A stretch of 64,000 nucleotides of DNA from contig NZ_MLJI01000001.1 in assembly GCF_002095535.1 (NCBI RefSeq), positions 62,001 through 126,000 of the forward strand, read 5' to 3'. This DNA is from Pantoea cypripedii. GTDB lineage: Bacteria > Pseudomonadota > Gammaproteobacteria > Enterobacterales > Enterobacteriaceae. This document shows positions 930-10,459 of this stretch, one piece after another. Every line of letters starts with the position of its first letter. Position 1 is the stretch's first letter. The notes under the pieces were generated by a model, which saw only the letters and a list, made by a program, of their open reading frames with translations, did not search any database and was not told the DNA's origin. The position numbers and the translations under genes were made by a program.

Positions 930-3900
930 ATGATTGAGCGTGTATTGATTGCCAACCGTGGCGCAATTGCGGTGCGTATTATCCGCACCTTGCAGGCGAT
1001 GAATATCCGGGCGATTGCGGTGTATGCCGAAGCCGATCGCCACGCGCGCCATGTGCGACTGGCGGATGAAGCCTGGTCGCTGGGCGAAGGCCAGGTGCGC
1101 GATACTTATCTGAACCAGGACAAGCTGCTGGCGATTGCCGCGCAGAGCGGCGCACAGGCGCTGCATCCTGGTTACGGTTTCCTCAGTGAAAACCCCGAAT
1201 TTGTGAACCGCTGCGAGGCGGCGGGCCTGCATTTTCTTGGGCCGAATGCGCAGCAGATGGCGGCGTTTGGCCTGAAGCACCGTGCCCGCGCGCTGGCGCA
1301 GGACAATAATGTCCCGCTGCTGCCCGGCAGCGGCCTGCTGACGTCGCTGGAGCAGGCACAGGCTGCCGCACTCGACATCGGCTATCCGGTGATGCTGAAA
1401 AGCACCGCAGGCGGTGGCGGCATTGGCATGCAGCGTTGCGATGATGCGCAGCAGCTGGCCGATGCCTTTACCCGCGTAAAACGCCTCGCAGGCAATAATT
1501 TCGCCGACGATGGCGTCTTTTTAGAGAAATTTATCGCCAGGGCGCGCCATATCGAAGTACAGATCTTTGGTGATGGGGCGGGTGAGGTGATTGCGCTCGG
1601 CGAGCGTGATTGCTCGGCGCAGCGCCGTAATCAGAAAGTGATGGAAGAAACCCCGGCACCGGGCCTGAGTGACGCGGTACGCGCCGAATTGCAGGCGACA
1701 GCGGTGCGCCTGGGACGCGCGGTGCAGTATCGCAGCGCCGGGACGGTGGAATATGTCTATGACGAGGGCAGCCAGCAATTCTGGTTCCTCGAAGTCAACA
1801 CCCGTTTGCAGGTGGAACACGGCGTGACCGAAATGGTGTACGGCGTGGATTTAGTGCGCTGGATGGTGGAGCTGGCACAGCAGACGTTGCCGCCGCTCGC
1901 CAGCTTGCCGCGGGTGGCAACCGGCCATGCGATTCAGGTGCGTTTGTATGCGGAAGATCCGGCGAAGCAGTTCCAGCCGAGTGCCGGTCTGCTCAGTCAT
2001 GTCGCCTTTCCTGAGGAACTGACAGCCACCACTTTGCGGGTCGATAGCAGCGTTGAGAGCGGCATGGAGGTTTCTCCGTTTTACGATCCGATGCTGGCGA
2101 AAGTGATTGTGCATGGGGCGGACCGCGACCAGGCGCTGGCCGGGCTGGCACAGGCGCTGGACGCCACGGTGTTGTACGGCATCGAAACCAATCTGCTGTG
2201 GCTGCGCCATTTGCTGACTCAGGCGGCAGTGCAGCAGGGACGCATTATCACCGCCACCCTCGGGGGCGTGCAGTGGCAACCGCCGACGCTGGATATTATC
2301 AGTGGTGGCACCCTGACCACGGTGCAGGATGCACCGGGCCGTACCGGTTACTGGCATGTCGGCGTGCCGCCCTCCGGGCCATTCGACAGCCGCGCCTTCC
2401 AACTGGGTAACCGACTGCTGGGGAATGACCCTCAGGCGGCGGGACTGGAAATTACCTTGCGTGGCCCGACCTTACGTTTTAATCAGGCCTGTAGCTTTGT
2501 GCTGACCGGCGCACCGCTGGTGGCGCAGCTCGATCAAAAACCGTTGGCGATGAACCAGATTATCAGCGCTGAGGCCGGGCAAACCCTGACGCTCGGGGAA
2601 GTTCACGACGGCAGCCGCAGCTACCTGCTGCTGGCGGGCGGGCTGGATACGCCGCGCTACCTCGGCAGCCGCAGTACCTTTACGCTGGGCAAATTTGGTG
2701 GCCATGCCGGACGGGCGCTGCGCGCCGGGGATGTGCTGCACCTCGCCGCTCCTGCGCAGTTACCGCAGGCGGCGTTGCCAGAGGCGTTGCTGCCGGAACT
2801 CAACGGAAGCTGGCAGCTGCGGGTGATTTATGGGCCGCATGGCGCGCCCACTTTCTTTACCGATAACGACATCAGCGAATTCTTCGCCGCCGAGTGGCAG
2901 GTGCATTACAACTCCAGCCGCACCGGCATTCGCTTAATTGGGCCGAAACCCACCTGGGCGCGTAGCGATGGCGGCGAAGCGGGGATGCATCCCTCCAATA
3001 TCCATGACAACGCCTACGCATTCGGCACCGTCGATTTTACCGGCGACATGCCGGTGATCCTGGGTCCGGATGGGCCGTCGCTCGGCGGTTTTGTTTGTCC
3101 GGCCACGGTGATCGAGGCCGATCTGTGGAAGCTCGGCCAGCTGAAAGCGGGCGATCGAGTGCAGTTTGTGCCGATCGATCTGACCAGTGCCGATCAACTG
3201 GCGCAGGCGCAACGGGCAGAGATCGCCACACTCCAGGCACAGCCGCTGAACGTAAGCGTAGCGCTGCCCCTGATTGATCCGGTGTTGCACCAACATGCAG
3301 CAACCGGGGGGTTGCCGTCGTTGTGCGTACGCGCCGCCGGTGACCGTTTTCTGTTGGTGGAATATGGCGATCTTCTGTTAGATATCGCGCTGCGTTTTCG
3401 TGTCCATGCGCTGATGCAATGGCTGGAGGCGCATCCGCTGCCGGGTCAGCTGGAACTCACCCCTGGGATCCGCTCGTTGCAGATTCATTATGACGCGCAG
3501 ACCTGTGCAAGAAGTGAGCTCCTGGCGCAGATATTGCACGCTGATAACTTACTGGGAACCTTAGCAGATGCGGCTGTTCCTTCACGCACCTTGTGGCTGC
3601 CGCTCAGCTGGGATGATGAAGCCTGCCGTGTGGCGATTCAACGTTACAGCCAGTCTGTCCGCCCCAATGCACCCTGGTGTCCGAGCAATATCGAATTTAT
3701 CCGTCGTATCAACGGGCTGGAAAGCGTTGAGGCGGTGAAAGACATTCTGTTCAGCGCCGCGTATCTGGTGATGGGGCTGGGCGATGTCTATCTCGGTGCA
3801 CCGGTTGCCACACCGCTCGACCCACGTCATCGCTTAGTGACCACCAAATATAATCCGGCGCGTACCTGGACGGCGGAGAACTCGGTGGGGATCGGTGGAG

Positions 3901-4523
3901 CCTATCTGTGCGTGTACGGCATGGAAGGGCCGGGCGGTTATCAGTTTGTCGGACGTACCCTACAGATGTGGAACCGTGACCGTCAGACGTCAGTGTTCAC
4001 CCAACCCTGGCTGCTGCGTTTCTTCGACCAGATCCGATTTTATCCGGTCAGCGCCGACGAGCTGCTACAGATTCGGGAACGTTTTCCGTGGGGGGATTAT
4101 CCGCTGCGGATTGAGGAGGGAGAATTCCGTCTCGCCGATTATCAGGCGCTACTGACGCAGCAGGCCGACGAGATTTCTCACTTCCAGCAGCAGCGTCAGC
4201 AGGCGTTCGACAGCGAACTGGCGCGCTGGCGTGCCGAGGGGCAGTTTACCTTTGACAGCCAGCTGCCGGAGCAGAGTAGTGAAGAGACCAGCATCCCGGC
4301 CGATTGTTGTGGCGTGGAGAGCCAGGTGGCAGGCAGCGTCTGGCAGTGGCTGGTGGCAGCAGGCAGTGACATTGAAGCGGGAGCTACAGTTGGCATTCTC
4401 GAATCAATGAAGATGGAAATCCCGATCGTCGCGCCAGTCAGCGGAAAAATCCATAGTCTGCAACGACAGGTCGGGCAGCAAGTGCAGGCAGGACAGCTAC
4501 TTATGGTGATTCAACCTGTTTAG
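930..4523 (+). CDS. uca: urea carboxylase-type biotin enzyme (urea or guanidine carboxylase)
   Basis: A 1197-residue single-chain biotin carboxylase. Residues 1 to about 450 form the biotin carboxylase part, with the ATP-grasp glycine loop KSTAGGGGIGMQ and the catalytic EVNTRLQVEHGVTE. Residues about 455-760 form the first carboxyltransferase part (GGTLTTVQDAPGRTGYWHVG), and about 785-1000 the second (LRFRVHALMQWL). The biotinyl domain ends the protein, with ESMKME placing the biotinylated lysine at K1161. It carboxylates urea to allophanate, or guanidine to carboxyguanidine, using ATP and bicarbonate. The two DUF1989 genes immediately upstream favour guanidine. No allophanate hydrolase follows: the next gene is yiaG, preceded by a 250-base leader. 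The product is full length and its key motifs are intact. The substrate is not settled by inspection; the specificity residue in the carboxyltransferase pocket would have to be aligned. Confidence 0.9.
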   Translation: MIERVLIANRGAIAVRIIRTLQAMNIRAIAVYAEADRHARHVRLADEAWSLGEGQVRDTYLNQDKLLAIAAQSGAQALHPGYGFLSENPEFVNRCEAAGLHFLGPNAQQMAAFGLKHRARALAQDNNVPLLPGSGLLTSLEQAQAAALDIGYPVMLKSTAGGGGIGMQRCDDAQQLADAFTRVKRLAGNNFADDGVFLEKFIARARHIEVQIFGDGAGEVIALGERDCSAQRRNQKVMEETPAPGLSDAVRAELQATAVRLGRAVQYRSAGTVEYVYDEGSQQFWFLEVNTRLQVEHGVTEMVYGVDLVRWMVELAQQTLPPLASLPRVATGHAIQVRLYAEDPAKQFQPSAGLLSHVAFPEELTATTLRVDSSVESGMEVSPFYDPMLAKVIVHGADRDQALAGLAQALDATVLYGIETNLLWLRHLLTQAAVQQGRIITATLGGVQWQPPTLDIISGGTLTTVQDAPGRTGYWHVGVPPSGPFDSRAFQLGNRLLGNDPQAAGLEITLRGPTLRFNQACSFVLTGAPLVAQLDQKPLAMNQIISAEAGQTLTLGEVHDGSRSYLLLAGGLDTPRYLGSRSTFTLGKFGGHAGRALRAGDVLHLAAPAQLPQAALPEALLPELNGSWQLRVIYGPHGAPTFFTDNDISEFFAAEWQVHYNSSRTGIRLIGPKPTWARSDGGEAGMHPSNIHDNAYAFGTVDFTGDMPVILGPDGPSLGGFVCPATVIEADLWKLGQLKAGDRVQFVPIDLTSADQLAQAQRAEIATLQAQPLNVSVALPLIDPVLHQHAATGGLPSLCVRAAGDRFLLVEYGDLLLDIALRFRVHALMQWLEAHPLPGQLELTPGIRSLQIHYDAQTCARSELLAQILHADNLLGTLADAAVPSRTLWLPLSWDDEACRVAIQRYSQSVRPNAPWCPSNIEFIRRINGLESVEAVKDILFSAAYLVMGLGDVYLGAPVATPLDPRHRLVTTKYNPARTWTAENSVGIGGAYLCVYGMEGPGGYQFVGRTLQMWNRDRQTSVFTQPWLLRFFDQIRFYPVSADELLQIRERFPWGDYPLRIEEGEFRLADYQALLTQQADEISHFQQQRQQAFDSELARWRAEGQFTFDSQLPEQSSEETSIPADCCGVESQVAGSVWQWLVAAGSDIEAGATVGILESMKMEIPIVAPVSGKIHSLQRQVGQQVQAGQLLMVIQPV

Positions 4524-4566
4524 CTATAATTAAGATTAAAAAATAATCAGGAATATGGCAGCAAAG

Positions 4567-4730
4567 CCGGGGTTCTGACCCATACTTAGAAACCCGGTCA
4601 ATTGTTGCATTGCCCTGGCATCTTTTGCAGTGTGCACCCAGGCTGTGTCCCGTAACGGTTTCAAAAAAATTCTTCTTAAACCGTTGCGGGATGCAGCCTG
4701 AACTGGCCGGTTTCAGCGTCTGCGGACGCT
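4567..4730 (+). promoter_or_regulatory. structured leader upstream of yiaG (three successive hairpins)
   Basis: Three inverted repeats lie in a row. The first pairs 4567-4576 with 4588-4597 (CCGGGGTTCT / AGAAACCCGG) with one mismatch. The second and main one pairs 4641-4661 with 4678-4698 around a 16-base A/T-rich loop: of 21 pairs, 18 are Watson-Crick and the other three are G-U on the + strand RNA. On the opposite strand those three would be A-C mismatches, so the structure is strand-specific. The third is AGCGTC-TGCG-GACGCT at 4715-4730. The yiaG ATG follows 50 bases later. It could be a 5' leader controlling yiaG, the end of the carboxylase operon, or a small RNA. I do not recognise it as a known family. 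Confidence 0.6.
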
Positions 4731-4779
4731 TTACCTCTCTACTTTCACGTGATTCATAGTGAGTTTTAAGGAGTTCTCT

Positions 4780-5076
4780 ATGGAAATAAAAGATCCAATG
4801 GTCGAGTTACTTAGTAGTCTTGAGCAGATTGTTTTGACACGTGATGCACAGCCTTCTGTATCTGAAATCGCCCTTCACAAGGCGTCAGTTCCCGAGCCGC
4901 AGCGTTTACGAGAGATGACCGGCATGCAGGTTGATGAATTCGCCCGCGTGATGGGGGTGAGCGTCTCTTCAGTGAAAAGCTGGGAGGCGCAACGCACGCG
5001 CCCTTCCGCTACGGCACGTAAATTGATGAAGCTGTTGCAGGCCAATCCCTATCTGGGTCGACAATTACTTGAGTAA
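4780..5076 (+). CDS. yiaG: YiaG-like XRE/HTH transcriptional regulator
   Basis: A 98-residue protein resembling E. coli YiaG along its length. The N-terminus MEIKDPMVELLSSLEQIV is shared, and a helix-turn-helix follows at about residues 45-85 (MTGMQVDEFARVMGVSVSSVKSWEAQRTRPS). The C-terminus ANPYLGRQLLE also matches. I chose ATG 4780 because AAGGAG at 4768-4773 is well spaced; the frame also opens earlier at GTG 4759. The fold resembles HigA/NadS antitoxins, but no toxin gene is adjacent, so it is a stand-alone regulator, as in E. coli. Its target is unknown. The gene is preceded by the hairpin-rich leader and followed by a strong terminator, so it is probably a single transcription unit. Confidence 0.85.
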   Translation: MEIKDPMVELLSSLEQIVLTRDAQPSVSEIALHKASVPEPQRLREMTGMQVDEFARVMGVSVSSVKSWEAQRTRPSATARKLMKLLQANPYLGRQLLE

Positions 5077-5096
5077 CACCGACTATTCGGTTCTGA

Positions 5097-5121
5097 CCCG
5101 CCATCACGGCGGGTTTTTTTT
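5097..5121 (+). terminator. rho-independent terminator of yiaG
   Basis: CCCGCC at 5097-5102 pairs with GGCGGG at 5108-5113, followed by eight T. It overlaps the stop codon of the convergent HD-domain gene. Confidence 0.9.
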
Positions 5122-5713
5122 AACTTAAACCGCCGTATTTGGCCGCCTGTTTGACAAACCAACTCTCCGGTACGCTGTGCGGTGGCTGCGCCAGCTGGGC
5201 AATGCCCTGACGAATAATGCTATCCGCCTGCCGCCATAAACGCTTGTCTCCTTCATTTAACAGCTGAATCTGCACCTGCTTCTCCACCAGGTAAACACGG
5301 GCGAAACTGGGATCAAATTGCACGATGGCACGGGTGTTATCGATGATGTCGGCCAGTTTGATGGTCTGCGCCTCGGGGGAGGCCTGTGCGGTATGGCGGA
5401 AGTGCGCCAGCTTACGGGCGGTGCGGTTTTTTGCCTGCGGCTGGGCGCTGTCAGTCAACATATCCACCAGTTCAGCCACGCGCGGGCCAAAGTGGCTTTC
5501 AATATCCTGTAATGTGCTGGGTGTATCTTCTACCGTGTCATGCAGCCAGGCGGCAGCCAGCATCGCTTCGTCATCCGTGACGCTGCGCACCAGCTCAGCG
5601 ACCGCTGCCGGATGGACGATATAAGGCTCATCGGTATATTTACGACGCTGTCCGGCGGCAGCATGGGCCTGGGTGGCATAGCGGCGCGCCTGATCTTCCA
5701 GTGAATCCCGCAT
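5120..5713 (-). CDS. HD-domain phosphohydrolase, SpoT/MESH1-like
   Basis: A 197-residue HD_4-type protein resembling the stand-alone hydrolase half of SpoT. Metal-site residues are visible: H34 in [13 protein letters not shown]58-D59 in WLHDTVEDT with E62-D63, and the [13 protein letters not shown] segment that corresponds to the KLADRTHN region of SpoT. Small proteins of this type can remove pyrophosphate from (p)ppGpp or similar nucleotides; the actual substrate here is inferred. I chose the ATG at 5713 because GGAGAA lies just upstream, although the frame extends to 5797 and would overlap the divergent ohrR start. It is transcribed divergently from ohrR across about 60 bases and convergently with yiaG. 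Confidence 0.75.
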
Positions 5714-10257: not shown

Positions 10258-10334
<77 letters not shown>

Positions 10335-10385: not shown

Positions 10386-10459
10386 CGTAGCGGCGCGATT
10401 TATCGCGCGGTTTTTCCCGGTGCCGTACACAAAATTGCGCGATAAATCGCGCCGCTACG
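10386..10459. repeat. inverted pair of REP-like palindromes
   Basis: Two 23-base copies in opposite orientation: 10386-10408, reading CGTAGCGGCGCGATTTATCG then CGC, and its exact reverse complement at 10437-10459, separated by 28 bases. Each copy contains the near-palindrome GCGCGAT-WW-ATCGCGC. The same core recurs at 28879, 28915, 42205 and 55406 in this window, always between genes. This is the behaviour of REP/BIME elements; no RAYT transposase gene is in the window. Confidence 0.85.

Follow-up and report, generated by a model that had tools for sequence, protein, structure and literature searches.

The 256 bases between the urea carboxylase gene (930-4523, TIGR02712) and yiaG in Pantoea cypripedii hold a long inverted repeat, and the question that this locus raises is where the repeat came from and whether it is now a working part of the yiaG mRNA. 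The window, the whole stretch of DNA that was analysed, is 64,000 nucleotides of assembly GCF_002095535.1 (contig NZ_MLJI01000001.1, positions 62,001-126,000 of the forward strand), from a Pantoea-type genome of 6.55 Mb. On the plus strand at 4780..5076, yiaG encodes an HTH regulator of 98 amino acids plus the stop codon, which matches the NF007481 equivalog at 136.8 bits (cut-off 110), and it is preceded by a Shine-Dalgarno sequence, AAGGAG, at 4768..4773. In the accessible parts of the respective papers, the E. coli yiaG promoter is described as σS-specific and as serving as a σS reporter (PMC5116933, PMC5559607), and the function of yiaG is termed unknown (PMC11980606), which is why an additional layer of control in the leader would, if true, matter for the regulation of this gene. 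Directly upstream of the urea carboxylase gene there is a guanidine-II riboswitch (860-910), which together with a tRNA accounts for everything that reaches an Rfam threshold over the whole window.

Structure of the leader

The preliminary description had paired arms 4641-4661 and 4678-4698 at all 21 positions as plus strand RNA. This pairing is present, and the stem is even longer, with C4639-G4700 and A4640-U4699 extending it to 23 consecutive pairs, 20 of them Watson-Crick and three of them wobbles (U4646-G4693, G4647-U4692, and U4653-G4686). The hairpin, called H2 here, has on the plus strand a 5' arm at 4639..4661 (from the sequence, the arm alignment, and a stem scan), an unconserved loop of 16 nt at 4662..4677 (from the arm alignment), and a 3' arm at 4678..4700 (from the arm alignment and the changes on the tree). 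In a scan allowing G-U pairs and loops of 3-40 nt, it is the second longest uninterrupted stem of the window, after one of 29 bp at 10386-10459, and in 20 simulated 64 kb sequences (Markov-1) the longest stems were of 14-18 bp, all shorter than the 23 bp of H2. The region 4524-4790 folds at -96.5 kcal/mol, with a z-score against 200 shuffles of -6.1 on the plus strand and a shuffle z-score of -3.5 on the minus strand.

The longer palindrome at 10386-10459 follows a tRNA gene (10258-10331) and has 88 matches in the genome, counting both strands, which marks it as a REP-type repeat. H2 is present in this genome in a single copy, and a REP-type origin for it was rejected on this comparison.

Upstream of H2, a σS-type -10 sequence, CCATACTTA, lies at 4580..4588 on the plus strand, with the hexamer CATACT at 4581-4586, as judged from a pattern match in the leaders and from the E. 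coli σS promoter. A loose form of this pattern, run with no shuffled control, is present 108-232 nt from the ATG in 67 of the 70 representative leaders, the misses being L089, for which the extracted leader is too short, and two distant outgroups. Given this -10 sequence and the σS specificity of the E. coli promoter, a transcription start near 4593 may be inferred, which would place H2 about 46 nt into the RNA. The -10 itself is within an inverted repeat, CCGGGGTT...AACCCGG (4567..4597, seen in the sequence, with similar repeats recognised by eye in relatives). Two further hairpins, 4567-4597 and 4715-4730, had been described as flanking H2. The second of these is real, but the first straddles the -10 and would not be a leader hairpin, since a transcript from about 4593 would be without its 5' arm and it could not form there.

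The hairpin at 4715..4730 on the plus strand, H3 (AGCGTC TGCG GACGCT), was recognised by eye, both in the alignment and among the dominant stems. Across the Erwiniaceae its stems interchange between GCGCC/GGCGC, GCGTC/GACGC, GCATC/GATGC, GAGTC/GACTC, GAACC/GGTTC, and GAGCC/GGCTC, and this variation, also assessed by eye, is compensatory and extends to leaders that are without H2. From these sequences H3 is judged to be real and older than H2. RNAalifold on the alignment of the leader tail gives 4 H3 pairs only, at -3.2 kcal/mol, and an automatic stem search returned a stem for 64 of 70 rows, 34 distinct ones in all, and none for the other 6, with some other stem picked in some rows; since the automatic searches gave such few or mixed stems, the compensatory reading is based on the alignment together with the dominant stems. 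A short inverted repeat, UUCAC...GUGAG (H4, 4744..4763, plus strand, by eye), lies shortly before the ribosome-binding site; it is recognisable from Erwinia to E. coli with a spacing of about 5 to 11 nt, that of E. coli being different, and may represent either an RNA hairpin or an operator.

Conservation of H2 and probable selection on its pairing

The region 4600-4790 is matched in 58 of 60 same-genus genomes (that of the window included), some of them only partially. A covariance model of H2, which like the alignment was made from 31 chosen hairpins with the long-loop and degraded ones left out, matches 56 of 61 same-genus genomes, again including that of the window. Among the genomes missed by the model, G044 (L089) retains fully paired arms around a 134 nt loop, G032 (L091) has a degraded H2, G018 (L098) is cleanly without it, and G041 and G051 have no leader match whatever. 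The hairpin is thus conserved well beyond this strain, in the 56 genomes and in G044. In L089 the long loop replaces the usual 15-16 nt, with both arms still paired; an isrK-like Rfam match in this leader lies outside the loop insert and was set aside.

The arms are present in 91 of 102 leaders, duplicates included, and absent from 11, with 30 distinct arm pairs and loops of 7-44 nt in the 91 copies; the loop limit in this count was 60, by which L089 is counted as being without the arms, and L089 is included in the tree analyses. An automatic start call was lacking for 9 of the 133 leaders (L018, L117, L122, L125, L127, L130, L133, L135, and L136), and the fragment L077 was left out of the 46 loci.

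There is no H2 in the leaders of Mixta (L068-L070) and Winslowiella (L071, L073), in the Erwinia-group leaders L072, L074, and L076 (L074 being deposited as Pantoea coffeiphila), or in L131 and L132, which are the G145 and G079 copies. In the E. coli yiaG leader, the locus of which was taken by accession after blastn with yiaG had found no match in E. coli genomes, no such hairpin is present (shuffle z +1.1). On the yiaG tree of 70 rows there are three changes in the presence of H2, as there are in each of 200 bootstrap trees, and the well-supported branches force at least two; these counts are approximate because the tree is of a single 294-base gene, with 18 of its 66 inner branches weak. 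The pattern is taken to reflect a single gain of H2 near the base of Pantoea, in a group that includes [Erwinia] mediterraneensis and 'Mixta' mediterraneensis, with at least two later cases of apparent loss or degradation. Given the clean loss in L098, the degradation in L091, and the erosion of H2 in P. rodasii (L045), the hairpin is dispensable.

L098 and L091, one a clean loss and the other a loss by decay, are natural comparisons for expression. On the same tree L035, L075, and L036, deposited as Enterobacter cancerogenus, Enterobacter ludwigii, and Erwinia sp. S63, are among Pantoea, and L074 groups with Erwinia; these deposited names may be wrong.

In the preliminary description the three wobbles, which on the other strand would be A-C mismatches, had been taken as a mark of selection for RNA structure. 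The wobble asymmetry on the tree, which is a direct test of selection on an RNA fold, upholds this. Single transitions from Watson-Crick pairs led 27 times to G-U and twice to A-C (p = 8e-7), or 19 times and twice when pair 8, the most changeable, is left out (p = 1e-4), against a balanced 110 to 109 in the control, made up of the same classes of transition at the third positions of yiaG. C-to-T is commoner per base than G-to-A at these third positions, and with the expectation raised to 0.62 for the per-base rates of the control the worst values are p = 2e-4 for all pairs and p = 0.004 without pair 8. Seven single transversions on the tree broke an H2 pair. Over the 690 pair cells of the 30 distinct arm pairs, 571 are Watson-Crick, 82 are G-U, 9 are A-C, and 28 are other combinations.

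The arms have also evolved slowly. Over the same 37 tips, chosen from 56 for having genes of 98 codons, parsimony steps per site were 0.65 in the 5' arm, 1.35 in the 3' arm, and 3.26 at yiaG codon position 3, such that the arms are two to five times slower than the yiaG third positions. The arms have identities of 0.92 and 0.89 and the loop one of 0.49, and 44 of the 73 single-base changes on the tree fall in the 3' arm.

Covariation within the stem, proposed earlier as a check on H2, gives a weak formal signal. Two-sided changes are seen in 4 of 23 pairs, which was equalled by 101 of 500 shuffles, and the number of two-sided cells (11; 52 of 500 shuffles), the covariation score (0.099; 64 of 500), and the number of further pair types (13; 485 of 500) are similarly unexceptional. 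Of the five measures only one stands out, the proportion of cells that are paired, which is 95.2% against 93.9% in shuffles (1 of 500 as high), and the RNAalifold covariation term for H2 is -0.3. This weakness is put down to the largely conserved sequence of the stem, which has had little chance to covary. Of the 23 pairs, 11 never vary. Among the 30 distinct arm pairs, pair 9 takes the form of a G-U in 27 and pair 15 does so in 22; the bases of pair 17 do not pair in 10, and those of pair 18 do not in 8. As judged from these comparisons, it is highly probable that H2 is under purifying selection for pairing as plus strand RNA, with the loop free to change.

An explanation that would dispense with RNA function is that H2 is the passive fossil of a mobile element, the pairing of which is maintained at the DNA level by template switching between the arms. 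Palindromes can self-correct, the two losses are without obvious consequence, and the weak covariation would also fit. Such correction would, however, remove wobbles, and those of pairs 9 and 15 persist in most of the arm pairs; the 27 to 2 preference for G-U over A-C and the slow change of the arms relative to yiaG third positions likewise speak against a passive fossil, which is considered unlikely.

A family of palindromes with shared ends

Over 198 genomes of the taxonomic family, the H2 model has matches in 12, two of them Pantoea, and it matches palindromes at other loci in other genera with E values down to 1e-9. In G079, G101, and G131, each of which has a yiaG over the cut-off, the matches are at loci other than yiaG. 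Outside Pantoea the matches are mostly palindromes, ending in sequences similar to (T/C)AGGCTGTGTCCC...GGGACACAGCCT(A/G). These ends are missing from the two weakest matches, both in small genomes (G095 and G136), and are present only in diverged form in G199 and G211. The pattern AGGCTGTGTCCC-N(12-41)-GGGACACAGCCT is found in 4 of the 198 genomes and is absent in the reversed control, and in G101 the 12-mer AGGCTGTGTCCC, with at most one mismatch, occurs 64+67 times versus 4+6 for the reversed control.

A paired unit with AGGCTGTGTCCC ends, of 267/268 bp or shorter, is present in 16 of the 20 G101 and G146 regions that were fetched, the shorter copies of the family being of 45-172 bp. The 267/268 bp repeat is seen among L205-L221 (G146, G101), where the shorter copies retain the ends; in its predicted fold the ends form a closing terminal stem, with large inner arms enclosed. 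This unit is below every Rfam threshold, and an 86-base stretch containing a 61 bp copy had no blastn match in plasmids and E. coli genomes. Some 16 consecutive bases of an H2 arm are also found in the ends of this high-copy family.

A second hairpin with such ends is present at another locus in 16 of the 61 same-genus genomes, and the 7 copies that were fetched (L191-L197) are at one common site. In L192, the one scanned, an RpsF_leader match adjoins and slightly overlaps the second hairpin, which means that the family also sits in the leader of another gene. As judged by the flanks, the same site is filled in G090 and G079. The palindromes at this shared site (L177, L180, L191-L197) have inner arms that differ between genera yet stay self-complementary. 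Among the same-genus genomes the model also has a further, weak match in G012 (E 0.045), which is without the ends.

H2 has the paired terminal inverted repeats on a short unit that are expected of a MITE, in the form of 23 bp arms with ends common to the 267/268 bp and shorter units. Dispersed copies are found for the family in G101, G146, G131, and G203, but not in the genome of the window, and there are both filled and empty orthologous sites, the outgroups being empty between the promoter and H3 and L098 being empty within Pantoea. No consistent target-site duplication was found in 29 junction rows, not all of which are independent; 8 of them have short direct repeats (3-4 bases), the offsets of which differ. 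Y1/RAYT transposases (PF01797) were considered as the autonomous partner in four genomes and provisionally rejected, there being no AGGCTGTGTCCC end pair flanking the 20 loci fetched of 29 matched, some of which end at contig ends; scattered ends with two mismatches are present in 3 of the 20. With neither a target-site duplication nor a Y1 transposase partner found, the case for mobility is built on copy number and on the sharing of ends, and H2 is probably the remnant of a mobile palindrome, rather than a proven transposon. Among the matches listed in mostly non-subscription literature on yiaG, the end motif (both orientations), Pantoea MITEs, and enterobacterial repeats, no description of H2 or of the AGGCTGTGTCCC family was found in the portions available, and neither GGCTGTG nor Pantoea or Erwinia occurs in the main text of PMC2267715, on stem-loop families in bacterial genomes.

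H2 might instead be native to the yiaG leader, for example as a hairpin bound by a small RNA or a protein, with its likeness to the dispersed palindromes being convergent. This would be consistent with arms that are conserved in sequence and not in pairing alone, nearly half of the pairs being invariant, and with the single copy in the genome of the window. The 16 or so consecutive arm bases held in common with the high-copy ends argue against convergence, as do the second such hairpin in 16 of 61 genomes, the one scanned adjoining the RpsF leader, and the outgroup leaders without H2. A native origin is accorded a distinctly low probability.

Possible role, and comparison with other palindromes

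The reading preferred here, at about an even chance, is that H2 is a mobile palindrome that inserted at yiaG in the ancestor of Pantoea and was kept as a leader RNA structure acting on the yiaG mRNA. The insertion, between the yiaG promoter and its ribosome-binding site in that ancestor, would have been of a small mobile palindrome or of a longer element's ends joined together, H2 then being retained as an RNA structure. Transcribed from the σS-type promoter and lying about 46 nt from the 5' end, the 23 bp helix would influence what becomes of the yiaG mRNA, most likely by serving as an RNase III site, as a 5' stabilising structure, or as both, and as a 5' structure it would set the transcript start apart from H3 and the ribosome-binding site.

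A transcribed helix of 23 bp near a 5' end can be cleaved by RNase III or can protect the end. Against the RNase III requirement for a helix of about 20 bp or more, H2 has a predicted 23 bp, its transcription being read from the promoter only. The accessible text of two reports describes cleavage of transcripts by RNase III at the terminal repeats of Correia elements in Neisseria (PMC10969869) and palindromic repeats as determinants of mRNA stability in Neisseria and Yersinia (PMC2267715). By analogy, a role for H2 as an RNase III site or in mRNA stability may be suggested tentatively. Its sequence is conserved beyond the needs of a generic RNase III substrate, and there may therefore be another constraint on the arms.

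The preliminary description had offered a regulatory leader or a stand-alone small RNA; the location in the leader holds, nothing was seen for a separate small RNA, and membership of the dispersed palindrome family had been missed. The strong fold would suit a small RNA or an attenuator, and early termination can occur in a structured leader. Against this, the sole terminator-like site in 4400-5200 is at 5095-5115, downstream of yiaG, and nothing terminator-like is found behind the stem, in agreement with the T-run already noted as absent. The Rfam scan of 4500-5150 also gave a best score of 32.8 bits against a threshold of 86, such that the earlier statement that H2 was not recognisable as a known family is borne out, and yiaG is unmentioned in the available main text of the P. 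ananatis small RNA paper (PMC6749038); a small RNA or attenuator is consequently very improbable. Sub-threshold miRNA-type Rfam matches to H2 were put down to chance similarity with a long hairpin. Least credible is that H2 acts as DNA to which YiaG itself, a nucleoid protein, or a transposase binds: the HTH character of YiaG and the suitability of palindromes for dimeric binding speak for it, but the strand bias of the wobbles would be meaningless for DNA binding and loops of 7 to 134 nt would shift the phasing of the half-sites.

If the preferred reading, a mobile palindrome kept as leader RNA, were extended, it could be speculated that an undescribed enterobacterial family of mobile palindromes has repeatedly become part of the leader RNAs of core genes, yiaG across Pantoea and rpsF in the P. 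agglomerans group and some relatives, and that in yiaG it is now a strand-specific RNA switch tying the mRNA processing of a σS-controlled regulator to RNase III or to another double-stranded-RNA-binding factor; this wider proposal is an unlikely one at present. To our knowledge, the recruitment of small mobile palindromes as RNA parts is often claimed, and selection on the fold that is visible across a genus is uncommon.

Comparison with the described systems is made from the accessible parts of the papers cited. In part of Pantoea the second, same-ended palindrome adjoins the RpsF leader (RF02893), and the yiaG leader itself differs from that leader in having no RF02893 match. The GTAG-tagged REP palindromes and the TIR repeats of tyrosine transposases are like H2 short, intergenic, dispersed, and able to form RNA hairpins (PMC3733652). 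Unlike them, H2 has no GTAG tag, by eye, and is unrepeated in its genome, and the AGGCTGTGTCCC ends differ in that no end pair flanks a Y1 transposase match in the 20 fetched loci. ERIC/RU-1, YPAL/RU-2, and RU-3 are, like H2, small enterobacterial palindromes, some of which are transcribed with neighbouring genes (PMC2229807, PMC2759123), whereas the termini of RU-1, RU-3, and the visible part of RU-2 are, by eye, other than AGGCTGTGTCCC.

The Correia/NEMIS elements of Neisseria are MITEs, the transcribed terminal repeats of which are cut by RNase III (PMC10969869, PMC2229807). H2 differs from them in sequence, in having an orthologous copy at yiaG in most of the genus, and in having no recognised target duplication, and its cleavage by RNase III is, unlike theirs, a proposal from analogy. 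As in H2, a small element with terminal inverted repeats pairs into a long RNA stem when it is transcribed beside a gene, and a mobile palindrome serving as an RNA element beside a gene is of a known kind.
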